From Escallonia rubra (taxonomy: Eukaryota; Streptophyta; Magnoliopsida; Escalloniales; Escalloniaceae), in assembly GCA_033065855.1 (NCBI GenBank), contig JAVXUO010001311.1, positions 1,550,001 to 1,614,000 on the forward strand: a stretch of 64,000 nt of DNA, read 5' to 3'. The notes beneath the pieces were generated by a model that made no database searches, was not told the DNA's origin, and saw nothing but the letters and a program-made list of their open reading frames with translations. The position numbers and the translations under genes were made by a program. Of the stretch, positions 2,682 to 42,535 are shown piece by piece (positions within the stretch are counted from its first letter, which is position 1; every line of letters starts with the position of its first letter).

Positions 2682-3323
2682 TCACTTGCACATCAGATTT
2701 TGGAGTTGCTTTGTGGCGACAGCAATTTCCATGGTGCAATTCATGTTGGTGGCTCTATTCTTCTTCATCATGAACATGATTGTCACCTTCCCCCTTATTC
2801 TTGATTGGCTGCTCAGCGGAATGACCCCGGCACTGATGTCATTTGCTAAGTCCGAAGTGCTTGTTAAATTTAAGGACGACAGATTCACCATAACGTCCAC
2901 CTTCTTCGTGTCCCGAATGTTAACACTGGACTTGCGAACAAAGGCCTCGCCTACCTTTATGTCTCTGTAGTAGAAGTTAACCGTGGCGTTCTGGTACTTG
3001 AAGGGACCAAAATTGTTGTTCCTGACACCGAATTTGGTATTCATTGCAATATTGAACGACGGATTTGCTGCCGTTCCTATGTCAAAAGCACCGTCAAAGC
3101 TGGCAGCCCGCACTCGAAACTTTGGGTTTCTGAACTTCATAATGGTGAGTCCCATGATGGATAAGACAATGACTTGAAATATCACAAAGGCAACACCGTA
3201 TATGACATACTTCTTGATTTTCTGTCGGCGAAGTTCATCAGAAGACAGTGAAGCTGCCTCTTCGTCGCTTTTGGTGTAACCATTGGCTGGTGCCAGAGGG
3301 TAGGCTTGTTGCCGCTCTGCCAT
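2682..3323 (-). CDS. LEA_2-domain membrane protein, array gene 1 (B type)
   Basis: Intronless 213-aa gene of the LEA_2 / NDR1-HIN1-like family, closest in my recollection to Arabidopsis At1g64065-like proteins. Visible layout: an acidic Ser-rich cytosolic head (residues 1-31, with YPLAPANGY), a basic stop (RRQKIKK, 32-38), one membrane segment (about 39-62), then a lumenal or apoplastic LEA_2 beta domain (about 65-200). Possible N-glycosylation sites are N112, N147, N152 and N195, and two cysteines (196, 212) could pair. Family members sit in the plasma membrane and are linked to stress and defence; no enzymatic activity is known. The ATG fits the conserved MAE start seen in all array genes. 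Tail signature SAGVIPLSS marks the B subtype. Nothing looks broken. Confidence 0.9.
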   Translation of the reverse strand: MAERQQAYPLAPANGYTKSDEEAASLSSDELRRQKIKKYVIYGVAFVIFQVIVLSIMGLTIMKFRNPKFRVRAASFDGAFDIGTAANPSFNIAMNTKFGVRNNNFGPFKYQNATVNFYYRDIKVGEAFVRKSSVNIRDTKKVDVMVNLSSLNLTSTSDLANDISAGVIPLSSQSRIRGKVTIMFMMKKNRATNMNCTMEIAVATKQLQNLMCK

Positions 3324-3439
3324 TGAACTTTTGATTCTTCAAGGAGTGTGTGTAGAAGGGGATAATAGATCCGGTAAGGTTGATGAATGTAGTGAACGTT
3401 GGAGCTATGTCCTTGTGGAGGATCAGATGGCGAGCAGGC

Positions 3440-3476
3440 TATATATAGGTGTTTGTCAGATGCTTCCTTAACGCGT
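3440..3476 (-). promoter_or_regulatory. Core promoter of array gene 1
   Basis: A TATA box (tatatata, 3440-3447) lies about 117 bp upstream of the ATG, followed farther upstream by GATGCTTC and an ACGCGT CGCG-box at 3471-3476. A perfect AGAAGCTTCT, which also fits an nGAAnnTTCn heat-shock half-site pair, occurs near 3568-3577. Confidence 0.7.
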
Positions 3477-4733
3477 AGTGTACCTCTCATTCTTGACTCT
3501 TTAAATATGTACATTGGCGTGTAACTGTTGGTCAATAACTTGTTCCTTTACTCCATCCACATTGATAGAAGCTTCTATAGCTAGAGGTGCGGATGCCAAG
3601 GCTGCCAAGTGCATTCATACGCCATTTCACCTCACTCCATCACATTATTCACTTATGCTGCTTAATCTGCCTTTCTGCTTTCAGTCAGAAAGCCGCCAGT
3701 GCTGGCGATTTTCCCTTTTCTCTTTGTGGTTTTGCTTCAGCTGCAGTTCATACTGCAGGTTTTAAATCTGCCAACAACGTCTATAGTAACTTCGATGCCA
3801 TACTTAGGGCCAGTTTGCTCACCAATTTAGCAACTATGCATCAGCAAGTTTCCTCCCTCTTAATGGACACCTTATTAAGAAACTAAACAAGTTACCCAGA
3901 AAATTTACGTAGGCTTATGGCCCTTACGCAGATTAAGACCTCCAAAGTACTTGTGATTGTGTCTATTGTTTGGCCATTGGCGAGAGTGTTATTGTAGCAA
4001 AATCCAATTGCATGTGACCTTTCATTTTTCAAAGGAATTGAAGTTAATAAAATGGTTAAACAAGATGCAAGGTGAATTAAGCAGCAGGAATTTGATCTGA
4101 CACGTATCACTATGTACTTTGTTTTTTTCTGTCTGAATCGGAGAGCATGTTCGTGTTGTATGAGGTATAGTTGCATCCTTCTTGTTTGCTTCATCCATCT
4201 TATGAGGATTATGCACCTCCAGTAAATTTATGTTATTCTTTCGTTTATGTATCCTTTTCCAGAATTTATGTTGGTTTTCGTGTAAGCTTTTTTGTTCGAG
4301 TTGAGACCTCTGGCAACTTAAGTATTTTCAAAGGAAAGAGTTCATTCTCTGAGCAGTCGCGACACAATGGTTCCATCCAGAAACTATAAAACAGAAAGAG
4401 ACCAGCTTTAATTCTACGAATCTGCAAGGCTTTACCAAAACCAAATGGTTTATTTCAATGTTGATCCTATATGCCCTCTTCTGTTAATTTTCAACCTTTG
4501 AAACACAAGGATTCTATAACGGGCGATGAGAAGTGATAAGTGATTGAATTGCACTGCAGGGGAAATGTTGTAGTTGATAGTGATAAGTGATTTTGGAAGC
4601 ATTAAACAGACAAATACCACTCAGTATGTAAGCAAAATTGTACAGGAAATATATATCACTAGCGTGCAAAGAATAAAAAAATACAGGAACTCAAGAGTTC
4701 AAGAAATACTTGAACAACTAGACATAAACTTCA

Positions 4734-5363
4734 TCACTTGCATTTCAAATTCTGGAGCTGCTTCGTGGCGAGAGCGATTTCCATGGTGCAATTCATGTTG
4801 GTAGCCCTGTTCTTCTTCATCATGAACATTATAGTCACCTTACCCCTTATCCTGGATTGGCTGGTCAATGGCAATATCCCAGAACTGATATCATTTGCCA
4901 ATTCCGATGTGCTTGTTAAGTTTAAAGATGACAAATTCACCATGACATCCACTTTCTTCGTGTCTCGGATATTAACACTAGACCTACGAACAAAGGCTTC
5001 GCCTACCTTTGTGCCCCTGTAGTAGAAGTCAACCGTGGCGTTTTGGTACTTAAATGGACCGAAATTGTTGTTCCTGACACCGAATTTGGTATTCATAGCG
5101 ATGTTAAACGATGGATTCGCAGCTGTCCCAACATCAAAAGCGCCATCAAAGGTGGCAGACCGCACACGGAACGTGGGGTTTCTGAACTTCATGATGGTGA
5201 GTCCCATGATGCTCAAGACAATGACTTGAAATATCACAAAGGCAACACCATATATGACATATTTCTTGATTTTCTGGCGGCGAAGCTCGTCTGAAGATAG
5301 TGAAGCTGCCTCTTCATCGCTTTTGGCATAACCATTGGCTGGTTGCTGCTTGTTCTCTGCCAT
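4734..5363 (-). CDS. LEA_2-domain membrane protein, array gene 2 (A type)
   Basis: Intronless 209-aa paralogue lacking the YPLA segment: the head reads MAENKQQPANGY. The basic motif RRQKIKK and the membrane helix (about 35-58) are identical to gene 1 at protein level; the outer domain ends in LQNLKCK. The tail signature SSGILPLTS marks the A subtype, shared with genes 4, 6 and 8. The 5' UTR and promoter resemble genes 4 and 6 rather than its immediate neighbours. Start is the conserved MAE; full length, no defects seen. Confidence 0.9.
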   Translation of the reverse strand: MAENKQQPANGYAKSDEEAASLSSDELRRQKIKKYVIYGVAFVIFQVIVLSIMGLTIMKFRNPTFRVRSATFDGAFDVGTAANPSFNIAMNTKFGVRNNNFGPFKYQNATVDFYYRGTKVGEAFVRRSSVNIRDTKKVDVMVNLSSLNLTSTSELANDISSGILPLTSQSRIRGKVTIMFMMKKNRATNMNCTMEIALATKQLQNLKCK

Positions 5364-5467
5364 TAATTATGTGATTCTGTACGAAGTTTTGTGTATGTGT
5401 ACTGTTTTGTGCAGTTGCTTGATGAAATGAGGGAGATGTTGGTGATGAAATCCATTTATGAGCAGCC

Positions 5468-5505
5468 TATATATAAGTCTGATCAGATGCTTCCTATATA
5501 CGCGT
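5468..5505 (-). promoter_or_regulatory. Core promoter of array gene 2
   Basis: TATA box at 5468-5475 about 105 bp upstream of the ATG; GATGCTTC then ACGCGT at 5500-5505. TTGAC and GGTCA (W-box cores, one per strand) follow within about 65 bp upstream. Confidence 0.7.
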
Positions 5506-5786
5506 ATCTAGTGTCTTTGTTGGTCATTCTTGACCTTTGGATTTATTTTGGCGTGTGACGTTGGTCAATGAACTCCATTTCTTAATTTTTTTTTGTTTTC
5601 CCCAACCATGCGTTGAATTTAATAGATGCTTCTACGGCAGACCATGGTTTGACCTCGCTCCATTATCCTTTCCCCTGTTGAGGCTGCAAACTCTAGTGTT
5701 ATGATATTACAGAGAAAGAAAATCATTTTTCGAGGAGATCAAAGAGGCAAGTTTTGACATAAACCCCTAGCAACATATTTGTGTAC

Positions 5787-6029
5787 GAACAAACGTTGGC
5801 TCTTACCCGGGTTGTAGGAATTTTCCTCCAATCCCTTGTATAATGACAATTAATAGTCGCTAAATATTTCTAGTAGGTTTTCTTTTAACACTTTCAACGA
5901 TAATTTTTAGTAGCATTTTTTTAGCGTCATAAATAAAAGCCACCAGAAACATTTAACGATGATCGATTGTCGTTGTATAGGGGGTAGGAGGAAGATTCCT
6001 CCAACCAGAATATCAACCAAATTTTTTCC
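5787..6029. mobile_element. MITE, family with GAACAAAC/TTTGGCTGCTACC ends, copy 1
   Basis: About 240 bp with inverted ends: the left end (gaacaaacgttggctc) is mirrored by the right end (aaccaaattttttcc side with ggaggaagattcctccaac). The interior folds on itself through taatagtcgctaaat and its partner. Copies with the same ends lie at 19719-19961 and 54617-54855. The homologous site upstream of gene 4 (near 10245) lacks it. Superfamily uncertain. Confidence 0.65.
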
Positions 6030-6317
6030 AAATGTGAATGCTTGATGCTGTTCAGATCATGTTTGAACAATATTTTTTGGTAATTCGTTTCAACCGCTGT
6101 TTAAAGGACTTTTTTTTACGTTCAAGTCCTCATGACATCCTGGGATAGAATCTATACAGTTACATGCAAAGTTTGCAGTGTGCTAACTTTCTCACCAATT
6201 TAGAGATAGTTATCCGAATAAGATCCATGAAACTTTATGGGTGACTTCTTACTAAAAAGGATTCTCTTAAATGGAATGTTTTGATTGCATAGGTGCTGAA
6301 ACGGAGAACATACTTGC

Positions 6318-6548
6318 CCTAACTACCATATCTCAGTTACTCTCTTAGGGTTGTTGAATGTTGGCTGATAGAGGAGGAAATTATAGCCTAAAGGAAACCA
6401 GAAAGAAAAAGAAAAAGCCAAGGTCACGGCTAGCTGCCGGTGATTTTGCAGAAACATTTAGCGACTATTAATTGTCACTATAGTATACACGGGGTTGGAG
6501 AAAGATTCTTACAACGCGGATAGGAGCCAACGTTTGTTCTTCAAATTT
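6318..6548. repeat. Inverted segment of the array's spacer, with a partial MITE
   Basis: The stretch reads as the reverse complement of spacer sequence found near 10248-10390 (upstream of gene 4) and 19970-20110 (upstream of gene 6); for example gctagctgccggtgattttg here against caaaatcaccggcggctagc there. Its right portion (about 6449-6548) is one end of the same MITE family as at 5787, in the opposite orientation. This suggests a local inversion bounded by two MITE copies. Confidence 0.6.
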
Positions 6549-7028
6549 TACAATGTCTAGATGCATTCTTCTTCTTGCTTAATCCATCCAATGAGTATGA
6601 ACAGTTATATGATTTTGTCGCTCCTTTCTTATCAATTTGCTGCAGCGATATAAAAACCTTCACAGGAAGTAATTCCTACTCGGTGAGCAGTGGCTACAAC
6701 ATGGTTCTGCCCAAACATTCACTACATTCACTACATTTGCCATTCATTTTCAGCGAGAGTGAGCCTTATCTCCTCATTCCCAGCTGTGAAACTAATAAAA
6801 TTGTACGCAGTACAAACGCTTGTGTGAATCATAATAAATCAATTGGAAGAATTTTTACAAAAAGAAGGGAATATTACTCGGTAGTATAACTATGATTGTA
6901 CAAAAGAATTTAGATATAAGTTACATTAAAAAGAATAAACAAATATGCTAGCCCTCTCTATTCAAACAACACTAAAATGAAAAGTCTAAGAAACCAGAGC
7001 TCATGACTTAACATGAAGATAACAGATA
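6549..7028. other. Spacer shared between array units
   Basis: No gene. Contains caggaagtaattcctactc and the following ~80 bp that recur near 10800 and 22507, then the 3' flank of gene 3, which resembles the 3' flanks of genes 5 and 7. This supports duplication of whole units including spacers. Confidence 0.6.
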
Positions 7029-7670
7029 TCACTTGCATCTTATATTTTGGAGTTGCTTCGTGGCGATGGCAATTTCCATAGTGCAGTTCATGTTGGAGGC
7101 TCTGTTCTTCTTCATCATGAACATGATTGTCACCTTTCCCCTTATTCTTGATTGGCTGCTAAGTGGAATCACCCCGGCACTGATGTCATTTGCTAATTCC
7201 GACGTGGTTGTTAAATTTAAGGATGATAGATTCACAAGAAAGTCTACCTTCTTTGTGTCTCGGATATTAACACTGGACTTAAGGACAAAGGCGTCGCCTA
7301 CCCTTGTGCCCCTATAGTAGAAGTCAACGGTGGCGTTCTGGTATTTGAATGGGCCGAAATTGTTGTTCCTGACACCAAACTTGGTGTTCATAGCAATGTT
7401 AAACGACGGATTTGCTGGCGTCCCAACATCAAAAGCACCATCAAAAGAGGCAGAATGCACGCGAAACTTGGGGTTTCTGAACTTCATAATGGTGAGTCCC
7501 ATGATGGATAAGACAATGACTTGAAATATCGCGAAGGCAACACCGTATATGACATACTTCTTGATTTTCTGGCGGCGAAGTTCATCAGAAGACAGTGAAG
7601 CTGCCTCTTCGTCGCTTTTGGTGTAACCATTGGCTGGTGCCAATGGGTAAGCTTGTTTCTGCTCTGCCAT
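7029..7670 (-). CDS. LEA_2-domain membrane protein, array gene 3 (B type)
   Basis: Intronless 213-aa paralogue with the YPLAPANGY head, same basic motif and membrane helix (one change, AFAIF in place of AFVIF). Differences in the outer domain include DFLVNLSSLNLTTTS and RASNMNCT. The tail SAGVIPLSS and ending QNIRCK are B-type. Its 5' flank, with gttgatgaatgtagtgaatg, matches genes 1 and 5. Conserved MAE start; apparently intact. Confidence 0.9.
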   Translation of the reverse strand: MAEQKQAYPLAPANGYTKSDEEAASLSSDELRRQKIKKYVIYGVAFAIFQVIVLSIMGLTIMKFRNPKFRVHSASFDGAFDVGTPANPSFNIAMNTKFGVRNNNFGPFKYQNATVDFYYRGTRVGDAFVLKSSVNIRDTKKVDFLVNLSSLNLTTTSELANDISAGVIPLSSQSRIRGKVTIMFMMKKNRASNMNCTMEIAIATKQLQNIRCK

Positions 7671-7792
7671 TGAACTTTTGATTCTTCAAAGAGTGCGTGT
7701 GTGTGTAGAAGGGGAAACTAGATCCGGTAAGGTTGATGAATGTAGTGAATGTTGGTGCTATGCCGTGGTGGAGGATCAGCTGGCGAGCAGGC

Positions 7793-7829
7793 TATATATA
7801 GGTGTTCGTCAGATGCTTCGTAAACGCGT
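7793..7829 (-). promoter_or_regulatory. Core promoter of array gene 3
   Basis: TATA box at 7793-7800, about 123 bp upstream of the ATG; agatgcttc then ACGCGT at 7824-7829; ttggtcaa, a W-box on the minus strand, about 30 bp farther. Confidence 0.7.
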
Positions 7830-7859
7830 AGTGTACCTCTCTGTACATTGGCGTGTGAC

Positions 7860-9221
7860 TTGGTCAATAACTTGTTGCTTTACTCCTTCCACATCGATAG
7901 ACGCTTCTGTAGCGAGAGGTGCCAAGTGCATTCATACGCCATCACATTATTCCTTTATGCTGCTTAAACTGCCCTTCTCCTTTCTATAAGAAAATCACCA
8001 GTACTTGGCGATTTTCCCTATTTCTCGTGGTAGTTTTGTTGTATTTTATTGTTTACAAAAGTTCGATTCTGCTCCAAAAATTATTGTAAACGAATTTATA
8101 TCCAACGAGTTTTGCTTCAGCTACAATTTCCTCCTCCATGGTTTAAGTCTTCCAACGTGTAATACTAATTACTTCGATGCCATACTTATGGCCAGTTTGC
8201 TCATCAATTAAGCAACTATGCATCAGAAAGTTTCCTTTCTCTTAATGGGCACCTTATTCAAGAAACTAAACATGTTACCCAGAATAATACATAAGCTTGA
8301 TGGCCCTTACTCAGATTAAGACCCCCAAAGTACTTGTGATGGTGTCCATTGTTTGGCCATTGGCGAGACAGTTGTTGCAGCAAAATCCAATTGCATGTAT
8401 GTAACCTTTCATTTTTCAAGGGATTTGAAGCTTATAAAATGGTTATACAAGTTGAAAGATGAATTAAGCAGCGGAAATTTCATTTTCACAGATCGATATC
8501 ACTACGTTTTTAATCTTTGTTTTTTTTCTGTCTGCAATCGGAGTGTATGTTCGTGCTGTATGAGGTATAGATGCATCCTTCTTGTTTGCTTCATCCACCT
8601 TATGAGGATTATGCTCCTCCAGTAAACTTCTGTTGTTCGTTAATGTATCCTATTGCAGAATTTAAGTTGGTTTTTATGTAGGTTTTTTGTTTGAGTTGAG
8701 AGCTTCGGCAATTTAAGTATTTTCAAAGGAAATTGTTCATACTCTGAGCAGTCCTGACACAAGGGACACAACGGTTCAATCCAGTACTGGTAAACAGAAA
8801 GAGGTGAGCTTCAATTCCACTAATCTGCAAGGCTTTACCAAAGCCAAATGGTTTATTTCAAATGTTGATCCTATGCCCTCTCCTTTTACTTTTCAATCTT
8901 TGAAACAGAAGGATTCTACCCGATGAGATTGCCATCCCTACTGCAATTAACATTGTCTAGGGACTCGTGATCCGCATCTCTTCAATCGCGGCTGAGAGCT
9001 TAAATCGTGGATCGTGATAAATTGTACTGCAGAGGAACTATGGTAGTGGATCGTGATAAATGATTTTGGAAGCATTCAACATACAAAATACCACTATCTA
9101 AGATTATAATTGTTCAAGAAATATATATCACTCGTGTGCAAAGAATCAACAAATATATGTATAAAAAAATACAGGAACTCAGAGTTCAAGAAATACTTGA
9201 ACAACATAAACATAAATTTCA
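7860..9221. other. Spacer between array genes 3 and 4
   Basis: No gene recognised. The stretch 8220-9130 is closely similar to 3835-4640 (the spacer between genes 1 and 2) and in part to 13490-14093, so the spacer was duplicated together with the genes. Apparent open frames here are not conserved between these copies. Confidence 0.6.
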
Positions 9222-9851
9222 TCACTTGCATCTCAAATTCTGGAGCTGCTTTGTAGCGACGGCGATTTCCATGGTGCAATTCATATTGGTAGCCCTGTTC
9301 TTCTTCATCATGAACATTATGGTCACCTTACCCCTTATCCTAGATTGGCTGGTTAACGGCAAAATCCCGGAAGTGATATCGTTTGCCAATTCCAAAGTGC
9401 TGGTCAAGTTTAAGGATGACAAGTTCACCATAACATCAACCTTCTTTGTGTCTCTGATATTGACACTCGACTTGCGAACAAAGGCCTCACCAACCTTTGT
9501 GCCCCTGTAGTAGAAGTCAACAGTGGCGTTCTGGTACTTGAAGGGACCGAAGTTGTTGTTCTTGACACCGAATTTGGTATTCATAGCAATGTTAAACGAT
9601 GGACTTGCTGGCGTCCCAACATCAAAAGCACCGTCAAAGGAGGCGGAACGCACGCGAAACTTGGGGTTTCTGAACTTCATGATGGTGAGTCCCATGATGC
9701 TCAAGACAATGACTTGAAATATCACAAAGGCAACACCATATATGACATATTTCTTGATTTTCTGGCGGCGAAGCTCGTCAGAAGAGAGTGAAGCTGCCTC
9801 TTCATCGCTTTTGGTATAACCATTGGCTGGTTGCTGCTGCTTCTCTGCCAT
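9222..9851 (-). CDS. LEA_2-domain membrane protein, array gene 4 (A type)
   Basis: Intronless 209-aa paralogue, head MAEKQQQPANGYTKS, followed by the shared basic motif and membrane helix. The tail ITSGILPLTS and LATKQ-like ending are A-type. The segment ITSGILPLTS and nearby nucleotides are nearly identical to gene 8, which suggests recent exchange or shared origin. Conserved start; full length. Its spacer is the cleanest A-type spacer and serves as an empty site for insertions near genes 2 and 6. Confidence 0.9.
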   Translation of the reverse strand: MAEKQQQPANGYTKSDEEAASLSSDELRRQKIKKYVIYGVAFVIFQVIVLSIMGLTIMKFRNPKFRVRSASFDGAFDVGTPASPSFNIAMNTKFGVKNNNFGPFKYQNATVDFYYRGTKVGEAFVRKSSVNIRDTKKVDVMVNLSSLNLTSTLELANDITSGILPLTSQSRIRGKVTIMFMMKKNRATNMNCTMEIAVATKQLQNLRCK

Positions 9852-9957
9852 TAATTATGTGATTCTGTGAAAAGTTTTGTGTATGTTTGCTCTTTTGTGC
9901 AGTTGCTTGAGGAAATGAAGGAAATGTTGGTGGTGAAGGATCCATTCATGAGCAGGC

Positions 9958-9993
9958 TATATATAAGTCTGATCAGATGCTTCCTGTACGCGT
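9958..9993 (-). promoter_or_regulatory. Core promoter of array gene 4
   Basis: TATA box at 9958-9965, about 107 bp upstream of the ATG; agatgcttc (from about 9975) and ACGCGT at 9988-9993. A TTGAC core follows at about 10024, and a second GATGCTTC copy near 10112. Confidence 0.7.
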
Positions 9994-10049
9994 ATAAATG
10001 TCCAGTGTCTTTGTCGTTCATTCTTGACTTTTAGGACTTATTTTGGCGT

Positions 10050-11086
10050 GTGCCGTTGGTCTATGAACTCCATTTCTGATTTTTCGTTTTTCACCTTCGT
10101 TGAAACTAATAGATGCTTCTATGTGACACGATGGCTTGACCGCACTCCATTAGACTTTGCCCCTGTTGAGGCTGCAAATTCGCGTGTTATGATATCACAA
10201 AGAAAGAAAAATTAATTTTCTAGGAGATCAAAGAAAGTTATTTGTGTACAAAAACTACAAAATCACCGGCGGCTAGCCTTGACCTTGGCTTTCTCTTTTT
10301 CATTCTGTTTTCTCTTGGCTAGCCTCCTCTATCAGTTCCCAAATCGGTTATGGGAAACAAGCCTAAGAGAGTAACTGAGATCTGCTCCTTGCGGCTAGCA
10401 TGCTCATCGTTTAGCTGAAGTCTATTAGAGTTTGCACTTTAAGAGACTCCTTATTGTTGAAAATTATAATGGAAAAAAAAAAACAACCATAAAGCAACGC
10501 TGGCTTGATGAAAATACCTCTTTAGGTACTTGGTTGATGAGTACAGTTTTTGGCCATTGGTGATAATCTAATTGTTAACTTCTTTTTCTGGATATTATGA
10601 GGACTTGGACATGAAAACTTGTTTTAAATAATTACTGAAAGCAGTTTAATTACTGAAAGCAGTTACTAAACGAAACTGTTCAAACAAGATGTGAAAGGCA
10701 TTAATCTTGTAAAGATGCATCCTTCTATTTCTTTGTCCATCCATTGAGTATGAACATGTACATTTTTTATATACGCTTAGTGATACGAATACGTTCGCAG
10801 GAAGTAATTCCTGCTCAGTGAGCAGTGGCTACAAAATGGTTCTGCTCAAAACTAGAAAGATGGAAGCTCTCCTCATCCTTCTCACCCCCTGTGCTCTATC
10901 GAAGATAATTTGGGATCTACAGCCAACACAGACAAAATGGTTTCTAAAACTTAATCCGATTCCCTTTCTTCTCAATCATTAAGCTTTGAAACAAAAGATC
11001 CTCCCACCCGCGCCCAAAGAGAAAACGGAAAGCAGAACCGGGATTAGGCCAATTGTGATGGTTAGTATGCACATAATTAATTTGGA
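10050..11086. other. Spacer upstream of array gene 4
   Basis: No gene. It aligns with the pieces 19620-19718, 19962-20500 and 22501-22770 upstream of gene 6, interrupted there by a MITE and an LTR element. It is therefore the uninterrupted reference copy of this spacer. Confidence 0.65.
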
Positions 11087-11091: not shown

Positions 11092-12021
11092 TGTTAGTGT
11101 TTTCCAAAATATAGTGTCAACTTTGGTTCATTTTTTTTGTCAAAATGATAAAAGGAATGTGAAGAGGCAAAGAGGGAGGAATCCCACATAAAAGGAAATT
11201 GGAAAAGTAAGTGGGTATATAATAAAGAACTCCACTTACTTTAATACTTATGTGGTATGCTAAGGTGTATGCATGTGCACCGAGTATGTTACGAAGCAAC
11301 ATACGAGGAACGCACGCGCGCGGCAATGGGCTGTGAAGCGCAATGTGCCGCTTTGATGGCGCACTTTGCACAACATCGTCGCGAGACGCCTTTAAGTTTT
11401 CGTGACGAAAACTAGGCCATCGGTATAACGGCTCGGGTCGGATCCGACCGTTAGCAGCTGGGTGGTTACACTTGCACCGGTTCGGGTTATGCCCGAACGG
11501 TTGCACCTGTTGGGCAGCTGGGTGGTTCCAGTTCGGGCCAGACCCAACTGTTGGGAGCTGGGTAGTTACCAGCCCAGATCTGAACCGTTAATCTTAACGG
11601 TTTCTGATCCAACGGTCCAGATTGCTTGGGTGCATGATGAAAGGGTGTGACCATTGATTAGCAACCACTAGTGCTTTATAAATAGAGCACAATGGTCACA
11701 TTTTCGGACCTAGTAATTAGCCTCTACTCTCTTCGTTTTTATTTCCTTTCTGCAGATTTTTTACAACAAGAAATTTCTGCAGAATTTCTTACTTGTAAAA
11801 CCATTATCCAGAATTCCATACACATATCTGGGGGATGAATATCGTGTGTGCAAATGCTATTCACTAAAGTGCTTCGTTGTATCTTGGAGGATATTTGCCT
11901 GCAACCCGCTGCACACCGTTTTTGGTGGGGGCAAATATAAACTTAAGGAAAGCGTTTTACAACGTGCCTCGAAGCCAATTTTCTTTCGGTCACAAAGCCA
12001 TACCAGATTTCTGTTCCAACA
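11092..12021 (+). mobile_element. Solo LTR of an LTR retrotransposon
   Basis: A 930-bp sequence starting TGTTAG and ending CCAACA, flanked on both sides by the 5-bp target duplication ttcac (11087-11091 and 12022-12026). It carries a plausible plus-strand TATA motif (tttataaatag, near 11672). No internal coding region remains, so it looks like a recombined solo LTR. The paralogous spacers near 6720 and 22830 lack it. Family not determined; a Copia origin is possible. Confidence 0.75.
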
Positions 12022-12342
12022 TTCACTACATTTGCCCTTCATTTTTAGCGAGAGTGAGCCTTATCTCCTCACTCCCAGCTTAGGAATTAAATTGCACTGC
12101 ATAGGAATGCTTGTATGAATCATAACTAATCAAATGGGAGAATTTAACAATCAAAAGGGAATACCACTCGCTAGAATGACTGTATGATTGTACAAAGAAT
12201 ATAGATATAAGTTACATTACAAAGAATAAACAAATGTGCTAGCCCTCTGTTCGTCCCTCTCTTTTCAAACAACAACAACGCGTAAAATATGAAACCCGAA
12301 GAAACCAGAGCAGCTCATGACTTAACATGAAGATAACACATA

Positions 12343-12984
12343 TCAGTTGCATCTTATATTCTGGAGTTGCTTCGTGGCGATGGCAATTTCCATGGTGCAA
12401 TTCATGTTGGTGGCTCTGTTCTTCTTCATCATGAACATGATTGTCACCTTTCCCCTTATTCTTGATTGGCTGCTCAGCGGAATGACCCCGGAACTGATGT
12501 CATTTGCTAATTCCGAAGTGCTTGTTAAGTTTAAGGATGACAGATTCACCATGACATCCACCTTCTTTGTGTCTCGGATATTAACACTTGACTTACGGAG
12601 AAAGGCATCGCCTACCTTTGTATTTGTATAGTAGAAGTCAACAGTGGCGTTCTGGTACTTGAATGGGCCAAAGTTGTTGTTCCTGACACCGAATTTGGTA
12701 TTCATCGCAATGTTAAACGAGGGAGTTGCCGGCGTCCCTACATCAAAAGCACCGTCAAAGGAGGCAGACCTCACGCGGAACTTGGGGTTTCTGAACTTCA
12801 TGATGGTGAGTCCCATGATGGACAGGACAATGACTTGAAAAATCACAAAGGCAACACCGTATATGGCATACTTCTTGATTTTCTGGCGGCGAAGTTCGTC
12901 AGAAGAGAGTGAAGCTGCCTCTTCATCGCTTTTGGTGTAACCATTGGCTGGTGCCAAAGGGTGACCTTGTTTCTGCTCTGCCAT
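12343..12984 (-). CDS. LEA_2-domain membrane protein, array gene 5 (B type)
   Basis: Intronless 213-aa paralogue, head MAEQKQGHPLAPANGY. The frame is open 14 codons farther upstream to an ATG at 13026, but the start at 12984 is chosen because it aligns with MAE of every other array member. Membrane helix has one change (KKYAIYG). FYYTNTKVGDAFLRKSS is distinctive; the tail SSGVIPLSS and ending QNIRCN are B-type and very close to gene 7. Intact. Confidence 0.9.
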   Translation of the reverse strand: MAEQKQGHPLAPANGYTKSDEEAASLSSDELRRQKIKKYAIYGVAFVIFQVIVLSIMGLTIMKFRNPKFRVRSASFDGAFDVGTPATPSFNIAMNTKFGVRNNNFGPFKYQNATVDFYYTNTKVGDAFLRKSSVNIRDTKKVDVMVNLSSLNLTSTSELANDISSGVIPLSSQSRIRGKVTIMFMMKKNRATNMNCTMEIAIATKQLQNIRCN

Positions 12985-13111
12985 CAAGCTTTGTCCTTCA
13001 AAGGAGTGTCGGTGTGTGAGTGTCAAGAAAGGGAAACTAGATCCGGTAAGACTGATGAATGTAGTGAATGTTGGTGCTATGTGGTGATGGAGGATCAGAA
13101 GGTAAGCAGGC

Positions 13112-13148
13112 TATATATAAGTGTTCATCAGATGCTTCCTATACGCGT
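13112..13148 (-). promoter_or_regulatory. Core promoter of array gene 5
   Basis: TATA box at 13112-13119 about 128 bp upstream of the chosen ATG; gatgcttcc then ACGCGT at 13143-13148; TTGAC near 13175 and agaagcttct near 13241. Confidence 0.7.
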
Positions 13149-14093
13149 ATAGCGTACCTCTCTTTGGTCATTCTTGACTTTTAATATGTAGCGTGACTGT
13201 TGGTCAAAAGCTTGTTCCTTTACTCCATCCACGCTGATAGAAGCTTCTGTACCTAACATGCCAAGTGCGTTCATACGCCATTTCACCTCACTCCATCACA
13301 TTATTCCTTTATGCTGCTTCGATTGCCTTTTGTTTTTCTATCAGAAAGCCAACAGTGCTGGCGATTTCCCCTTTCCCCTTTGTGGTTTTGCTTCTGCTAC
13401 AATTTCCCCCTGCATGGTTTATATCTTCCAACAGCGTGTAATAGTAACTTCAATGCAATACTTAGAGCCAGTCTGCTCATAGATTTAGCAACTATGCACC
13501 AGAAAGTGTCCTCCCTCTTAATGGACACCTTCTTGTCTGCTTCATCTCCAGTAAACTTATGTTGTTCGTTTATGTATCCTTTCCCAGAATTTATGTTGGT
13601 TTTGATGTGAGTCTTTTTGATTGAGTTGAGAGCTTCGGCAATTTAAGTATTTGCAGAGGAAATTGTTCATACTCCGAGCAGTCGTGACACACTGGACACC
13701 ACGGTTCCATCCAGTACTGTTAAACAGAAAAAGGAAAGCTTTAATTCTAGTCATATCCAAGGCTTTACCAAAACCAAATGGTTTACTTCAAATGTTGATC
13801 CTATGCCCTCTCCTCTTGCTTTTCAATCTTTGAAACCGAAGAATTCTATGTCCCACTCACCCTCCTACCACCCATACGCTCCTCCCCACCAAGCAGGACT
13901 GTAGGCCACCTCGTTAATTGGATGCACTACACTTAATATTGTCCAAGGACTCGCGATCCTCATCTCCTCAGTCGCGACTGAGAAATCAAATTGTACTGCA
14001 GAGGAACTACTGTAGTGGACACTGATTAATGATTTTGGAATAATTAAACAGACAAAACACCACCCAGTATGTAAGATACATTTGTTTAGGAAA

Positions 14094-16210
14094 CGAGCTA
14101 ATATACCCGTGCAAATGCACGGGATAGTGTGCAAGTTGGTTCTATTGCAAATCATATACTTTAGCATGATGAAATAGAACCGATATTTCAAAAGACAAAG
14201 AAATAACACTCACGTCTATAAATTTGTCACATAATTAATTTGACAATCTCATTGACAATAGCTGTTTAAGAAATAAAGAATATTTTTTAGAATGAATTTC
14301 ATAATTACCAATCTATCATCTAAAAGCACTATTGACGGGAAAAAAATGTATCATAAGTTTTGCCAACATGTCGATTGCTAGTAATTCATGTCCTCTTTCG
14401 TTTCCTTGTTTATCTAAATCGTTGCCTTGTATCTTTAGAAGTTTTGTACTGTATGTGTTTCTTTGTTTGATTTATTAAGTGTAATTTTATCAGTGTTCAT
14501 TATTATATTATTCATACATGGCTAGTGAAAGTTGTCTTTAAAAAAATATTCAGACCGTTGCCATTTGGGGTTGGACCAAAGGGTACTTCTTGATTATTGT
14601 ACATGGATACAAAAACATGGTAGGGAGAAAAGCCCTTGTAGTGAAAATTTTAAAAGTTCCAAGTTAGAGGATAGAATTTACATGGCTTTCAAGTTAATTC
14701 AAGAAATTGTATCTAGAATCACCATTGTTTAATTAGGCTATTTGCTTCAATTTTGGATTTCGATCATGATTAGTCTTTTGCTACTACACTACTACTATCT
14801 TAGTCCTACTATTTCCTTTACAATACCGGCCCATCATCATTGACATTGTCTCTCGAGTGGCCACCTCTATCACCACATATGAGTTACTATGCATTAGAGT
14901 TACTGTGGCCATCAACACGGTCACTATATTGTTGCCAAAGAGTTACTACACTATCACCACTACCATCATTACTCCTACAATGATTGGTCATTGCCATATG
15001 CACCATTACCGTCACCATCACCCACTGTATCGCTATTGTATCTGCCTTCATCGTCTTGCTAGTATCATTACCATAACTACAGCCATGGAGCGTCCACGCC
15101 ACCATCACCACATTTGTACGACCAATAGTGTATATATTGCAAAATTATAATTAAAATTGTCTTAGACCTCATATAACTTTTTTATTTTTTTTCCAATTAT
15201 CTACAATTTCCTCTTGTGGTTTAATTTTGAAAAAAATTCCATACTGACAATAACATGTTAGACTTGGTGCATATTATTATAAACTTAGGGTAAAACTTAC
15301 AAAAATGTAACATTCCTTCCAATTTCATTTTCATGTTAGTGTACTTCGTGAAATTAACTATATCTTTTTTCCCAATGTGATACTGTATTACTTTTGTTGC
15401 TCTTCCTGTTTGGAGGTATGCAGTTTAACATTTTGCAAAATACAGTTTGCTTTTGAATCCAGGAAAATTGTAGTTCCATGCTAATTCAATTTTCTATCTA
15501 AATTTTAATGAGATAATTCATGCTATTTAATAGATGCTACACAAACAAACTAATTTTGACCAAGATTATGAGGAAATTGGAAGTGTATTCTCCTAAGGTC
15601 ACATTTCTCCCATTGGCTTAAATTCCCTTTAACATAAATGTTACGGCTAATTTCCTTTATGTTTGTATATCAGATATGCCAAAATGATAGCACACATGCA
15701 TGATACATCTAAGGATGACTATTTCAAGTTTTTTTTTTTAATACTTTTTGGCCCATATTTGCTGCTAAAAGAAATAGTACAGTGATGGAAAGGAAAGATT
15801 TCAACACCAACATTGAAATACCCTAAGTACCTAACCATATGGATAAAGCAGAAATTTCAAATTATTGTTAGTATGTTAATTTCATATAAGTTGAGTGCAT
15901 GCATTACCCACAACATATATAGGCAGAGTGAGAAAGAATGTGTGAGTGGAGGAGAGAAGAAGGAATATAGGTATGGAGGTGTGGAGGTGTACAATGTGAC
16001 TTAAATAAGAGAATAATAAGATAATAAGATGTCTAAACTCAAGGTATAATAAATGGATCAGAAGTCTAGATTCATTGAAATAATATTCAAAAGTTCAGAT
16101 TAAAAGTCTACATTCAAAGTAAGCTGAAACTTCAGCAGAGAGCTAAGAATTCTAGATAAGGACTCGTCTTTTATATATTGAATTGATATTGATTGATTGA
16201 TATTGATTGA
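14094..16210 (-). mobile_element. Helitron-like insertion in the 3' flank of gene 6
   Basis: Comparison with the 3' flanks of genes 2 and 4 (aggaaatatatatcactag) shows about 2.1 kb inserted between aggaaa and tatacatcac, that is between A and T as Helitrons do. Read on the minus strand it begins TC and ends with a hairpin (cccgtgcatttgcacggg) eight bases before a final CTCG; the usual Helitron end is CTRR, so this end is off by one base. No helicase is present, so it would be non-autonomous. A CCA/CAC-rich patch (14.86-15.11 kb) lies inside. Confidence 0.5.
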
Positions 16211-16264
16211 TATACATCACTAGTGTGCAAAGAATCAAAAAATACATGAACTCAGAGTTCAAGA

Positions 16265-16340
16265 AATACTTGAACAATTAACCAAAAAAAAAATAAATAC
16301 TTGAACAATTAACCAAAAAAAAAATAAATACTTGAACAAC
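16265..16340. repeat. Short tandem repeat in the gene 6 3' region
   Basis: A unit of about 36 bp (aaatacttgaacaattaacc plus an A-rich run) is repeated just downstream of the gene 6 stop codon; genes 2 and 4 have a single copy of aaatacttgaacaac there. Confidence 0.7.
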
Positions 16341-16356
16341 ATAAACATAAATTTCA

Positions 16357-32505: not shown

Positions 32506-33147
32506 TCACTTGCAGTTTAAAATCTGGAGCTGCTTTGTAGCGAGGGCGATTTTCATGGTGCAATTCATATTGCTGGCTCTCTTCTTCTTCATCATGAACA
32601 TTATCGTCACCTTTCCTCCTATTCTGGAGTTGCTGGTCACCGGCAAAAACCCAGAAGTGATGTCGTTTCCTAATTCCGATGTGCTTGTTATATCGGTAGA
32701 GGAGAGATTCACCATTACGTCCACCTTCTTCGTGTCCCGAATGTTGACGCTGGACTTGCGAACAACGGCCTCGCCTACCTTTGTGCCTCTGTAGTAGAAG
32801 TCAACCGTGGTGTTCTGGTACTTGAAGGGACCGAAGTTGTTGTTCCTAACGCCAAACTTGGTGCTCATGGCAATGTTGAACGATGGATTTGCAGCTGTCC
32901 CGACCTCGAAAGCACCGTCGAACGTGGCAGACCGCACGCGGAACTTGGGGTTTCTGAACTTCATGATGGTGAGTCCCATGATGCTCAAGACAATAACTTG
33001 AAATATCACGAAGACAACACCATATATGACATACTTCTTGATCTTCTGGCGGCGAAGCTCGTCGGATGACAAAGAACCGGCTTCTTCGTCGCTCCGGGAA
33101 TAGCCATTGGTGGGTGCCAAGGGGTAGGCTTGTTGCTTGTCTGCCAT
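32506..33147 (-). CDS. LEA_2-domain membrane protein, array gene 9 (D type)
   Basis: Intronless 213-aa paralogue, head MADKQQAYPLAPTNGYSRSDEE, shared in form with gene 11 (D subtype). Basic motif and membrane helix conserved. The outer domain diverges most toward the end: LSSTDITSTSELGND, GFLPVTSNSRIGGKV and QILNCK. Conserved start; no defects. It is the first gene after the ~6-kb transposon block, so it begins the older half of the array. Confidence 0.9.
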   Translation of the reverse strand: MADKQQAYPLAPTNGYSRSDEEAGSLSSDELRRQKIKKYVIYGVVFVIFQVIVLSIMGLTIMKFRNPKFRVRSATFDGAFEVGTAANPSFNIAMSTKFGVRNNNFGPFKYQNTTVDFYYRGTKVGEAVVRKSSVNIRDTKKVDVMVNLSSTDITSTSELGNDITSGFLPVTSNSRIGGKVTIMFMMKKKRASNMNCTMKIALATKQLQILNCK

Positions 33148-35279: not shown

Positions 35280-35924
35280 TCACTTGCACTTTAAGTTTTG
35301 AAGTTGCTTTGTGGCGAGGGCAATTTCCATGGTGCAGTTCATGTTTGAGGCTCTGTTCTTCTTCATCATGAACATAATTGTCACCTTTCCTCTAACCCTG
35401 GACTGGCAACTCAACGGCAAAATTCCTGAGCTGATATCATTTGCTAGTTCCGAAGTGCTTGTCAGATCGGCGGATGACAGGTTTACATTTACATCTACCG
35501 TTCTTGTGGCTCGTATATTAACTGTCCTACGACGAATAAATGCATCGCCTACCTTTGTGCCCCTGTAGTAGAAGTCAACCGTGGTGTTCTGGTACTTGAA
35601 AGGCCCGAAATTGTTGTTCTTGATACCGAATTCGGTGTACATAGCGATCTTAAAGGAAGGATCTGCTGCTGTACCAACCTGAAAGGTGTCTTCGAACATG
35701 GCAGACCGTACACGAAACTTGGGGTTTCTGAATTTCATTATGGTCATACCCATGATGGTCAAGACAAAGACTTGAAACACCACAAATACAACGCCATATA
35801 CGATGTACTTCTTGCGCTTTTGGCGGCGAAGCTCATCGGTCGACACTGAAGCCTCCTCTTCGTCGCTTCGGGCGTAACCATTGGCTGGTGCCAAAGGGTA
35901 GGCTTGCTGATGCTTCTCTGCCAT
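35280..35924 (-). CDS. LEA_2-domain membrane protein, array gene 10 (C type)
   Basis: Intronless 214-aa paralogue. The start at 35924 is chosen for the conserved MAE; the frame is open a further 37 codons but without similarity to the family. The C subtype, shared with gene 12, has MAEKHQQAYPLAP, RRQKRKKY and a helix with FVVFQVFVLTIMGMTIMKF. The outer domain has FEDTFQVGTAADPSFKIAMYTEF and RRRTVNIRATRTVDVNV, so an arginine-rich loop replaces RKSSVNIRDTKKVD. Intact. Confidence 0.9.
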   Translation of the reverse strand: MAEKHQQAYPLAPANGYARSDEEEASVSTDELRRQKRKKYIVYGVVFVVFQVFVLTIMGMTIMKFRNPKFRVRSAMFEDTFQVGTAADPSFKIAMYTEFGIKNNNFGPFKYQNTTVDFYYRGTKVGDAFIRRRTVNIRATRTVDVNVNLSSADLTSTSELANDISSGILPLSCQSRVRGKVTIMFMMKKNRASNMNCTMEIALATKQLQNLKCK

Positions 35925-37190: not shown

Positions 37191-37832
37191 TCACTTGCAT
37201 TCTAGATTTTGGAGTTGCTTCGTTGCGATGGCAATTCCCATGGTGCAATTCATATTGGTAGCTCTGTTCTTCTTCATCATGAACATTATTGTAACTTTTC
37301 CTCTTATCCTAGATTGGCTGGTCAGAGGCAAAATTCCAGAACTGATATCGTTGGCTAATTCTGATGTGCTTGTTAAATTTGAGGATGACAAATTCACCAT
37401 AACATCCACCTTCTTCGTGTCTCGGATATTAACACTCGACTTGCGAACAAAGGCCTCGCCAACCTTTGTGCCCCGGTAGTAGAAGTCGACCGTGGCGTTC
37501 TGGTACTTGAATGGACCGAAATTGTTGTTCCTGATACCAAACTTGGTATTCATAGCAATATTAAAGGACGGATTTGCTGATGCGCCGACATCAAAAGCAC
37601 CATCGAAGGACGCAGACCGCACGCGGAACTTGGGATTTCTAAACTTCATAATGGTGAGCCCCATGATGCTTAGGACAAAGACTTGAAATATCACGAACGC
37701 AACACCATATATGACATACTTCTTAATTTTCTCGCGGCGAAGCTCGTCGGATGACAACCAAGAAGCCTCTTCGTTGCTTCGGGAATAACCATTGGATGGT
37801 GCCAATGGGTAGGCTTGTTGCTTGTCTGCCAT
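37191..37832 (-). CDS. LEA_2-domain membrane protein, array gene 11 (D type)
   Basis: Intronless 213-aa paralogue, head MADKQQAYPLAPSNGYSRSNEE. The basic motif is RREKIKK (one change) and the helix has FQVFVLS. The outer domain is closer to A-type genes than gene 9 is (SSGILPLTS), but the head, 5' UTR and promoter match gene 9. Ends QNLECK. Intact, conserved start. Confidence 0.9.
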   Translation of the reverse strand: MADKQQAYPLAPSNGYSRSNEEASWLSSDELRREKIKKYVIYGVAFVIFQVFVLSIMGLTIMKFRNPKFRVRSASFDGAFDVGASANPSFNIAMNTKFGIRNNNFGPFKYQNATVDFYYRGTKVGEAFVRKSSVNIRDTKKVDVMVNLSSSNLTSTSELANDISSGILPLTSQSRIRGKVTIMFMMKKNRATNMNCTMGIAIATKQLQNLECK

Positions 37833-39452: not shown

Positions 39453-40097
39453 TCACTTGCACACCAAATTTTGGAGTTGCTTCGTCGCGATAACTACTTC
39501 CATGGAGCAGTTCATGTTTGAGGCTCTGTTCTTCTTCATCATGAACATGATTGTCACTTTTCCTCTGATTCTGGAGTGACTAGTCAATGGCAAAATTCCG
39601 GAGCTGATGTCATTTGCTAACTCGGAAGTGCTTGTTAAATTGGTTGATGACAAGCTCACCGTAACGTCAACCTTCCTTGTAGCTCGGATATTAGCCGTCC
39701 TTCTACGAATAAAGGCATCGCCTACCTTCGTGCCCCTATAGTAAAAGTCTACCGTGGTGTTCTGGTACTTAAAAGGACCGAAGTTGTTGTTCTTGATTCC
39801 GAATTGGGTATTCATAGCAATGTTAAAGGAAGGATTTGCCGCGGTACCAACTTCAAAAGTCTCGCCAAAGGTGGCGGACCGGAGACGAAACTTGGGATTT
39901 CTGAACTTCATGATGGTCATTCCCATGATGGTTAAGACAAAGACTTGAAACACCACAAACACAACTCCGTATTTGATGTACTTATTGCGCTTCTGGCGGC
40001 GAAGCTCGTCGGATGACAGCGAGGCCGCCTCTTCGTCGCTCCGGGTATAGCCATTGACTGGTGCCAATGGGTAGGCTTGTTGATGCTTCTCTGCCAT
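39453..40097 (-). CDS. LEA_2-domain membrane protein, array gene 12 (C type)
   Basis: Intronless 214-aa paralogue, head MAEKHQQAYPLAPVNGYTRS. Like gene 10 it has RRQKR-KKY-type basic residues (RRQKRNKYIKYG) and the FVVFQVFVLTIMGMT helix, FGETFEVGTAANPSF, and the arginine-rich RRRTANIRATRKVD. The ending is MEVVIATKQLQNLVCK. Conserved start; full length. Confidence 0.9.
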   Translation of the reverse strand: MAEKHQQAYPLAPVNGYTRSDEEAASLSSDELRRQKRNKYIKYGVVFVVFQVFVLTIMGMTIMKFRNPKFRLRSATFGETFEVGTAANPSFNIAMNTQFGIKNNNFGPFKYQNTTVDFYYRGTKVGDAFIRRRTANIRATRKVDVTVSLSSTNLTSTSELANDISSGILPLTSHSRIRGKVTIMFMMKKNRASNMNCSMEVVIATKQLQNLVCK

Positions 40098-40239: not shown

Positions 40240-41204
40240 AGAAAATTACCTCGGTTTTGCCTTCGTTTTCTTCGACACCTTGACGCGTAACGTTCACCCA
40301 AAAGATGTTCTAATTCAGATGCTTCAATCTAGAAGCCCATAACCTTGACATTTTACAAGGCAAAGACTTTTTCCTTTTTTGTTCTCTTTTTTTTTTTTTT
40401 TTGTCTGGGCTATCAAGTTACATGGAAATTTAATTCTCGTGGAAAATAAGAATTTTTGTCCCGTCCCGTTAAGAAATGTCGATGACATATGTAACTTCGT
40501 CTTAAATCAAGGACGATAACTATTTTGGGAAAAAAGGATCGTGCTAACGTGTGTCTTAGGACACATGTGAAAAATGTTTTTTTCCAAATGTAAAACAGAA
40601 ATGGATTACCTAATAGGGTTACCGTAATCATTTGTGGGTTAGTAAAGCAGAATTAATTAGTCGTGTATGACTCATGTGAAATTTAAGAAACCAAGTCATT
40701 CGTTCATTAAAAGTAGAGGTATGTTAAGTCTCTTAAATGTTGCTTATCATGTGCCCTTGTGCCACGAGCTAGCATTTGCCATAATGATGTAAGATTAATT
40801 GCCAATCACGGACATCTGCACTCGGCATGAGAGGAGGACCTTCTCAACAATGTCCCTCCCTTCTCTGCTAAGAGGGGCGGTCTAACTTTTCAACTTCTCC
40901 GATATCCTTCCATTGAATGATTATGCTGGAGCTTTGACAAGCAACTGGTTGTTTCAGCCTTCTCTTGTACCATCTCACTTTGCCCAGCTTATGGCTTGTA
41001 ACTCAAAATAAGCAACCAACACTAGACCATGACCATCCTTCTTTGTGAAAGCAAGCTTCTAAGCCTCCTGCTGGCTGCTCCCTAGAATTTGAAGAAAGCA
41101 GGTGTTTTCCTGCTTGCAATAACTGAAGAGAAACAAACCCTCGAACTGATATTATGTACAAAGTAGACGAATAATTCCACTTTGCGTACATTTTCCTGTA
41201 ATTT

Positions 41205-41700
41205 TGCTCATGTCCAGTTAATTTTTGTTGTGTAACAACTCTTTTTGATCTTCTCTAGCAAAGACATTACATTACATGGATAGAAAGGAAGGCCATATAG
41301 GCAAGTTTCCTATTCTTCCCTTTTATCTTCTCTTGTAGAACTAATTTCCGGTCTTTTCCTAGATGGTATCAGAGTTATCGTCAGCCATGCATTCTCATAT
41401 TCTCTTCCTACAGATATCAGCATTTTCTGATCATCTCTTTCAGATCGCCATGGCTAAAAGCAACTTCATGCCGCGGCGATCTTATGTTCAAGATTTGCTG
41501 TGTCTTCTATAACCTCGAAGGCAATGATACACTTCAGTGCTACCAACTAAAACTCCAACGCTGTACTAGCATTTGAGGCTTCCTCTCCAAAGCAGCAGCT
41601 AGCAAAATTATTCCGACAAACTATCCTATTTTCGGCCAAATTTTTGCTGCAATTCTCACATTCCCATCTTTCATGTTATTAATTTGTTAATTCAAAGAGT
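41205..41700 (+). mobile_element. Fragment of an LTR retrotransposon 5' end
   Basis: tggtatcagag at about 41364 matches the initiator-methionine tRNA primer site used by Copia elements, and about 85 bp later a short gag-like start (MAKSNF) follows. The LTR before it and the rest of the element were not recognised, so this is a broken remnant. Confidence 0.4.
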
Positions 41701-41896
41701 AGGAGTAAAGCAATGAGGAAAAACTTGTGTAGGGGAGGATTGCAGATATTCGGATGCATCTTGGATCTAACAAACAAAAGAATACTTCGCATTGAAATCA
41801 AAATATGTAGAACACTTTACAATCAAGAAAGATGAAAACCAGCGACAATCAACACCAGTGTCAGTCTACACAAAGTTCACCTAACATACAGACCTA

Positions 41897-42535
41897 TCAC
41901 TTGCACGTCAAATTCTGGAGTTGCTTTGTGGCGACAGCAATTTCCATGGTGCAATTCATGTTGGTCGCTCTGTTCTTCTTCATCATGAACATGATTGTCA
42001 CCTTCCCCCTTATTCTCGATTGGCTGCTCAGCCGAATGACCCCGGCACTCATGTCATTTGCTAAGTCTGAAGTGCTTGTTAAATTTACGGACGAGAGATT
42101 CACCAGAACATCCACCTTCTTTGTGTCCCGAATGTTAACGCTGGACTTGCGAACAATGGCCTCACCTACCTTTGTGTCTCTGTAATAGAAGTCAACCGTG
42201 GCGTTCTGATACTTGAAAGGACCGAAGTTGTTGTTCTTGATGCCAAACTTGGTGTTCATGGCAATGTTAAACGATGGACTCGCAGTTGTCCCGACATCAA
42301 AAGTACCATCAAACGAGGCAGACCGCACAAGAAATTTGGGGTTTCTGAACTTCATGATGGTGAGTCCCATGATGCTCAAGACAATGACTTGAAATATCAC
42401 AAAGGCAACACCGTATATGACATACTTCTTGATTTTCTGGCGGCGCAGGTCGTCGGCTCTAGACTGGGCCACTTCTTCGTCGGCTCGGCCGTAAGGATTG
42501 GTTTGTTGGGGAAGCTGTGCTTGTTTCTCAGCCAT
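41897..42535 (-). CDS. LEA_2-domain membrane protein, array gene 13 (divergent singleton)
   Basis: Intronless 212-aa paralogue at the end of the array. The head is unlike the others (AQLPQQTNPYGRADEEVAQSRADDL), lacking YPLAPANGY and SLSSDE, but the basic motif and membrane helix are the array consensus and the outer domain resembles B genes (SAGVIRLSS, ending QNLTCK). It may be the nearest to an ancestral form or may have converted its tail from a B gene. Intact. Confidence 0.9.
   Translation of the reverse strand: MAEKQAQLPQQTNPYGRADEEVAQSRADDLRRQKIKKYVIYGVAFVIFQVIVLSIMGLTIMKFRNPKFLVRSASFDGTFDVGTTASPSFNIAMNTKFGIKNNNFGPFKYQNATVDFYYRDTKVGEAIVRKSSVNIRDTKKVDVLVNLSSVNLTSTSDLANDMSAGVIRLSSQSRIRGKVTIMFMMKKNRATNMNCTMEIAVATKQLQNLTCK

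Follow-up and report, generated by a model that had tools for sequence, protein, structure and literature searches.

A tandem array of LEA_2 genes in Escallonia rubra with a two-gene repeat and mosaic coding sequences

We analysed a stretch of 64,000 nucleotides from Escallonia rubra (contig JAVXUO010001311.1 of assembly GCA_033065855.1, positions 1,550,001 to 1,614,000 of the forward strand; the window) that carries a tandem array of LEA_2 genes. The array comprises 13 related open reading frames (ORFs), all on the minus strand between positions 2682 and 42535 and encoding 209-215 residues. Each ORF has a single stop, at its end, and the 13 intact frames reported by an earlier, sequence-only reading of the window were all found open. 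Over all 78 pairs, identity ranged from 74.5 to 95.1% for the coding sequence (CDS) and from 70.8 to 93.8% for the protein. A Pfam scan of genes 1, 10 and 13 matched LEA_2 (PF03168) with 33.9, 38.8 and 36 bits against a curated cut-off of 25.4, and the remaining ten genes are close paralogues of these. No additional LEA_2 piece was found in the 64 kb with tblastn (E<=0.01), and therefore the array seems to be contained within the window, its left end lying just 2.7 kb from the window edge. At the same threshold the spacers held no hidden pseudogene copies, and a nucleotide search of them gave short matches only (best E 0.033). Structured RNAs were not detected in the window (0 Rfam matches at the gathering score).

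Genes 1 (2682-3323), 3 (7029-7670) and 5 (12343-12984) are of type B, and genes 2 (4734-5363), 4 (9222-9851) and 6 (16357-16986) of type A. These assignments were made from the ORFs, the trees and the alignment, for gene 1 from the ORF, Pfam, the alignment, the tract test and segment trees, and for gene 6, which is probably under relaxed constraint, from the ORF, the trees and substitution estimates. Gene 1 has its tail in common with gene 13. Gene 7 (23133-23762) is a mosaic of an A-like promoter and head (without PLAP) and a B tail, and gene 8 (25594-26241, start at 26241) has the tail and promoter of type A with a PLAP-containing head. Genes 9 (32506-33147) and 11 (37191-37832) were assigned to type D and genes 10 (35280-35924) and 12 (39453-40097) to type C. 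Gene 13 (41897-42535), which the earlier reading had set apart, is indeed a divergent single gene with a B-like tail.

Genes 1-8 form four B-A dimers, and the two-gene unit proposed in the sequence-only reading is right for this part of the array. As that reading had stated, the tails alternate B, A four times in the alignment. Four A and four B genes alternate perfectly in 2 of their 70 possible orders, so that alternation alone could be due to chance and the end-to-end homology of the spacers is the stronger evidence. Spacers 1-2, 3-4 and 5-6 are mutually homologous almost end to end, as are spacers 2-3, 4-5 and 6-7, and matches between these two classes are mainly promoter-proximal and 3'-flank stretches. 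Spacer 1-2 (3324-4733) aligned over its full length with spacer 3-4 (7671-9221) at 73.7%, which agrees with the earlier claim that the two match. The regions upstream of genes 2, 4 and 6, also said to be alike, matched at 75-82%, for gene 6 only past an insertion. Spacer homology delimits unit 1-2 (2680-6715), unit 3-4 (6724-11058) and unit 5-6 (12019-22769), the last enlarged by insertions. In unit 7-8 (22819-26549) just a 59-bp remnant of the first (B-to-A) spacer class is kept, at 25208-25266.

Direct spacer homology was summed by gene offset over positions 1-44000, with coding sequence masked and matches of at least 50 bases counted. Offsets 0-7 gave 775, 1468, 6441, 1016, 2651, 846, 491 and 70 bases, and when 350 bp upstream and 60 bp downstream of the genes were also masked, offsets 0-6 gave 683, 937, 3390, 239, 1378, 207 and 61. 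The homology was highest between spacers two genes apart (6441 bases, as compared to 1468 for one), which is the period of a higher-order tandem array of dimers and the displacement that the earlier reading had predicted for the diagonals of a dot-plot. Its estimate of about 4.2-5.3 kb between genes of the same type was reproduced where no large insertion intervenes (ATG-to-ATG distances of 4347, 4488, 5314, 4685 and 4173 bp); distances spanning insertions were 7135, 10778 and 9255 bp.

In the CDS tree type A (genes 2, 4, 6 and 8; support 88/94), type B with gene 13 (genes 1, 3, 5, 7 and 13; 95/98) and type C (genes 10 and 12; 100/99) were recovered as clades. The tree of the 600-bp upstream regions grouped genes 9 and 11 (100/99), 10 and 12 (97/99), 1, 3 and 5 (100/100) and 2 and 4 (97/97), and placed genes 7 and 8 near 2 and 4 (83/95), so that the promoter of gene 7 falls with type A. 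The expected clustering of same-type genes in both trees was thus mostly seen; it failed for genes 9 and 11 in the CDS tree and for genes 6 and 7 in the flanks. Trees in which immediate neighbours are closest relatives were examined with the approximately unbiased (AU) test for the within-unit pairs. Duplication between neighbours within a unit was rejected in 6/6 cases (1+2, 3+4, 5+6, 7+8, 9+10 and 11+12; p from 4e-153 to 1.9e-4). Synonymous divergence (dS) agreed between the two gene pairs in three of the four comparisons of adjacent dimers (1-3 0.44 and 2-4 0.44; 3-5 0.37 and 4-6 0.36; 9-11 0.74 and 10-12 0.80) and disagreed in the fourth (5-7 0.13 versus 6-8 0.57).

Genes 9-12 are likely to be two D-C dimers, to judge from the promoter classes, the C clade and the similar dS of the two pairs and not from the bodies of the spacers. 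The middle of spacers 9-10 and 11-12 can no longer be aligned, the flanking match of genes 9 and 11 is short (271 columns at 67%), and spacers 10-11 and 12-13 share stretches of 163, 72 and 63 columns at 76-81%. The order D, C, D, C given by the sequence-only reading is therefore seen in the promoters and the C clade; the D pair is absent from the CDS tree and the spacers are eroded. Its count of four B-A and two D-C dimers accordingly holds for genes 1-8 and is likely for genes 9-12.

Within the coding sequences, types A and B stay apart in the tails, as they do in the flanks, and the coding middle carries little type signal. The synonymous distinction between A and B was strong in codons 169-215 (for B from codon 145), with differences of 0.12-0.18 within types and 0.35-0.43 between them, and was partly retained in codons 1-72. 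In codons 73-144 the difference within types nearly equalled that between types: in 24-codon windows it was 0.26-0.33 within A, 0.21-0.31 within B and 0.25-0.35 between A and B. For the same codons the AU test rejected an A clade (p 0.039), though not a B clade (p 0.067), and rejected the pairing of genes 2 and 4 (p 0.0012), whose units (1-2 and 3-4) are nevertheless joined by their promoters and spacers. The coding sequences are mosaics, and hence the gene tree is not the tree of the units. Gene 7 groups with the A genes at its promoter and weakly so at its head (49/73), where a pairing of genes 5 and 7 was not rejected (p 0.19), and it pairs with gene 5 in codons 73-144 (98/95). Genes 1 and 13, which bound the array, were joined at the tail (98/98) and rejected as a pair at the head (p 0.018); none of 300 permutations reached the tract-test result for this pair. 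Conversion-like tracts at a global p<=0.05 were found in 5/78 pairs (1-13, 1-3, 4-13, 2-13 and 2-4).

Genes 1 and 3 illustrate the mosaic structure. Their upstream bins differ mostly by 7-18% (single bins by 24% and 28%), same-residue codons in 73-144 by 35-42%, and the whole-CDS dS is 0.44. As the core has diverged more than the flanks, it looks older than they do, as would be expected if it had been imported from another type. The comparison of all 78 pairs revealed no close donor for this core left in the array. Probably, ectopic conversion or crossing-over has decoupled the genes from their units.

An insertion of about 0.95 kb (17020-17976, as delimited by eye) lies about 35 bp upstream of the gene 6 ATG and separates this gene from its promoter. 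The ratio of nonsynonymous to synonymous divergence (dN/dS), estimated on gene triplets, was 0.53 on the gene 6 branch (bootstrap 5-95% 0.22-1.86) as compared to 0.06 (0.01-0.14) for gene 2; such ranges are wide on short branches, as for gene 5 (0.28, 0.10-1.99). Private changes of gene 6 numbered 13 nonsynonymous and 2 synonymous, a count biased by its restriction to otherwise invariant columns. We preferred the triplet estimate to these counts, and those of gene 13 were left unused, being affected by gapped-column artefacts with apparent stop codons. These estimates suggest that gene 6 is probably under relaxed constraint. The statement that all 13 genes are intact is consequently correct for the frames and fails for gene 6, with its distant promoter and raised dN/dS; an open frame is not the same as an undamaged gene. 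Just downstream of gene 6 lies an exact 31-bp repeat (16264-16339, 2.5 copies, 100% match).

Unit 5-6 also contains a 2-kb long terminal repeat (LTR) element on the minus strand (20501-22500), with LTRs 99.2% identical over 372 bases, ends TG..CA and the target duplication ATACC. It entered unit 5-6 after the dimers were duplicated, the corresponding empty site lying near 10790 in unit 3-4. It carries a 254-codon ORF (21070-21834, minus strand) with no Pfam match at E 0.1 and is probably non-autonomous; a stretch beside one LTR resembles a tRNA primer-binding site. In unit 1-2, the spacer segment 6042-6451 beyond gene 2 runs in the opposite orientation to its counterparts in units 3-4 and 5-6 (62% identity). 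It is flanked by a copy of an element like a miniature inverted-repeat transposable element (MITE) at 5787-6029 and a partial, opposed copy at 6450-6539. This partly palindromic MITE-like element, with ends like TTGGCTGCTAC, was found at 5787-6029, 19717-19961 and 54617-54854, the first two copies occupying similar locations within units 1-2 and 5-6. In gene 7 the core promoter contains an 83-bp tandem duplication (23806-23971, minus strand, 96%), giving two TATA-like sites.

Two promoter elements recur along the array. A CGCG box followed by GAAGCATCT lies upstream of the TATA box, the copy of gene 1 being at 3458-3476 (minus strand). ACGCGT occurs 14 times in the window against 3.1 expected from shuffles, and 12/14 occurrences are upstream of 11 LEA_2 genes. 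In all, 12/13 genes have a CGCG box, ACGCGT in 11 of them and ACGCGG in gene 11. That of gene 6 is displaced to a distance of 1.1 kb, and at the aligned position gene 13 shows none. Directly after the box GAAGCATCT is exact in seven genes (1-5, 7 and 8) and has one change in gene 6, the TATA stretch coming next. It occurs 15 times against 0.5 expected, in every case upstream of a LEA_2 gene; 11/13 genes have it, genes 2, 4, 7 and 8 with two exact copies, and genes 10 and 13 have none. These copies are related by descent and do not count as independent hits. A simple TATA pattern was present within 400 bp in 9/13 genes (not in 9, 11, 12 and 13); for gene 6 it was seen solely within the insertion. 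All four types, A-D, retain the CGCG box, where the 600-bp upstream regions (gene 6 excepted) are only about 42-53% identical in global alignment. An excerpt of PMC4890006 gives VCGCGB as the binding site of SR1/CAMTA3, and such a site, as in the promoters of CAMTA-regulated genes, is found in the 12 genes with the box. On this ground the array genes may be induced by stress or Ca2+ (CAMTA-type). None of the matches listed in the literature search let us recognise GAAGCATCT as a named element.

The encoded proteins are under constraint, with a median dN/dS of 0.11 (range 0.06-0.27, 78 pairs). In the four genes scored there is one hydrophobic, transmembrane (TM)-like segment within residues 40-63 (hydropathy maximum 2.46-2.54 over 19 residues, start at residue 40-45). 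N-glycosylation sequons occupy columns 114 and 197 in 13/13 genes, and columns 198 and 214 hold cysteines in all of them. We infer type II membrane proteins with a LEA_2 domain that would be luminal or apoplastic, outside the cytosol. LEA_2 domains have a LEA14/WHy-type beta-sandwich fold. An AlphaFold2 model from the 13 close paralogues was weak (mean pLDDT 51.8) and had a long N-terminal helix followed mostly by strands. It gave no fold match in the PDB at E<=0.001, and a phmmer search to E 10 for a relative of known structure returned 14 matches (best 0.29), none credible and none a LEA_2 structure. Such proteins are annotated as At1g64065-like. The NHL (NDR1/HIN1-like) proteins, in an excerpt of PMC12223711, likewise carry a TM segment at the N-terminus ahead of a LEA_2 domain and are described as type II membrane proteins with this domain outside the cytosol; both features were found here (TM segment in the four genes scored, LEA_2 in the three scanned). 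By eye on the alignment, the array proteins approach only motif 1 of the NHL motifs given there, with the stretch RNPKFRVRSA. They have NNNFGPFKYQN in place of the motif NPNKRIGIYYD and lack the NPN motif. In the same excerpt NHL type 5 carries motif 1 only (PMC12223711).

Elsewhere in the window a second, unrelated duplication (44166-48093 and 54524-58363) contains acidic and coiled-coil-like ORFs with internal repeats; its copies are mainly 82-94% identical and match no Pfam family above cut-off. A copia-type retrotransposon fragment lies at 59336-59977 (RVT_2, E 9e-43). The segment 18460-18915, within unit 5-6, looks copia-like by eye only and had no Pfam match.

We consider it very probable that the locus is a LEA_2 tandem array with a higher-order two-gene repeat, in which dimers were copied in register and coding cores were later exchanged. 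One LEA_2 gene would have been duplicated into distinct lineages, after which unequal crossing-over between like types would have multiplied a neighbouring B-A pair, in register, into the four dimers; an older D-C pair would have been duplicated once. Conversion or crossing-over inside the coding sequences, between and within types, may then have produced the mosaic genes, leaving type identity mainly in the flanks and tails, with purifying selection keeping the proteins alike. A number of observations weigh against this explanation. Genes 9 and 11 group by promoter and not by CDS, although a CDS grouping was not rejected (p 0.48). The 600-bp flank of gene 6 could not be placed in the upstream tree and went weakly with gene 13 (77/78), and the tree of the downstream flanks resolved only 2+4 and 3+5, with star support. 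The dS of non-adjacent dimers disagrees (1-5 0.41 versus 2-6 0.22; 3-7 0.40 versus 4-8 0.31; 1-7 0.42 versus 2-8 0.58). Gene 13 takes part in three of the five significant tracts, the other two are within a type and none joins A with B dimer genes, for which reason exchange between A and B is deduced from the trees of the segments and from the synonymous differences along the CDS. Of unequal crossing-over itself, what is seen is the expected product and not the event. Finally, the CDS sister pairs 2-6 (97/96) and 4-8 (96/94) lie at an offset of four genes, at odds with the spacers.

These sister pairs would fit a last expansion that doubled a four-gene block (1-4 into 5-8) instead of single dimers, a course of events that we regard as rather unlikely. 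It also agrees with the MITE-like element, which lies at roughly corresponding points (by eye) upstream of genes 2 and 6 and is missing upstream of gene 4; the gene 6 copy, however, resembles the unrelated one at 54617 (82.7%) more closely than its counterpart at gene 2 (77%), so that two separate insertions are possible. The spacers of neighbouring units are usually closest, contrary to a block of four: promoters 1-3 share 87.5% as compared to 78.6% for 1-5, spacers 3-4 and 5-6 share 88.4% as compared to 80.6% for 1-2 and 5-6, and upstream spacers 2-4 share 82% as compared to 75.5% for 2-6. The B promoters 3-5 (78.1%), on the other hand, are no closer than 1-5, nor is 4-6 (75.4%) closer than 2-6. 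That monomers were added singly, with the A/B alternation arising by chance or by conversion to alternate neighbours, is highly improbable. Promoter-proximal stretches of about 60-300 bp are common to both types and the alternation by itself has the odds given above, but two distinct spacer classes, each alignable from unit to unit over almost its whole length, require two-gene duplications and strongly disfavour single additions. A single ancestral dimer as the source of the B-A and D-C pairs alike, which would make A and C orthologues, and likewise B and D, is only partly excluded, and this too counts against separate B-A and D-C pairs. We think it improbable: a B+D clade was rejected (p 0.019) and in the CDS tree a long branch sets C apart from the other three types, while an A+C clade was not rejected (p 0.21). 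Mosaicism weakens both clade tests. Within the preferred explanation, dimers copied in register with later exchange of cores, the array might even act as a module-shuffling system, with promoters and type-specific tails in a fixed two-gene register and coding cores exchanged between types, which we find doubtful. Core synonymous divergence (0.21-0.33 within types) would then exceed that of the neighbouring flanks, and the pairing of like-type flanks in recombination would maintain the register.

Multi-gene tandem modules are known from the alternating alpha/beta-tubulin arrays of trypanosomes and from RCCX modules. They resemble the present array in that a period of several genes is copied in register; here, in contrast, the two genes of a unit are closely related paralogues from a single family and exchange crosses between them. 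In Eucalyptus grandis LEA2 genes were similarly amplified in large duplication events, with 15 LEA2 (LEA-like) genes on chromosome 10 and 21 on chromosome 5, and large clusters of the families studied there contain pseudogenes in some cases, according to an excerpt of PMC4419795, which describes no two-gene units or mosaics. The sequence-only reading had called the intact frames unusual for so long an array; larger LEA2 clusters have been described already, and the structure is ordinary in kind and unusually legible. Among the literature matches listed, judged by title and the start of the abstract, there was no plant LEA_2 case of an array of dimer units, and no literature joining LEA_2, tandem duplication and At1g64065 was found.

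The kind of structure is already known, and the array clearly exemplifies one of the recognised routes by which arrays grow. The present analysis adds three things: the history of the units is told apart from that of the genes, the promoter of gene 6 is shown to be displaced, and conserved promoter elements are identified that are testable for this branch of LEA_2. The array probably serves the dosage of a stress-induced (Ca2+/CAMTA-type) protein. As a compact, readable plant array with a two-gene period, in which spacers and coding mosaics can be told apart, it also cautions that gene trees of tandem families and dating based on dS can misstate the order of duplication.

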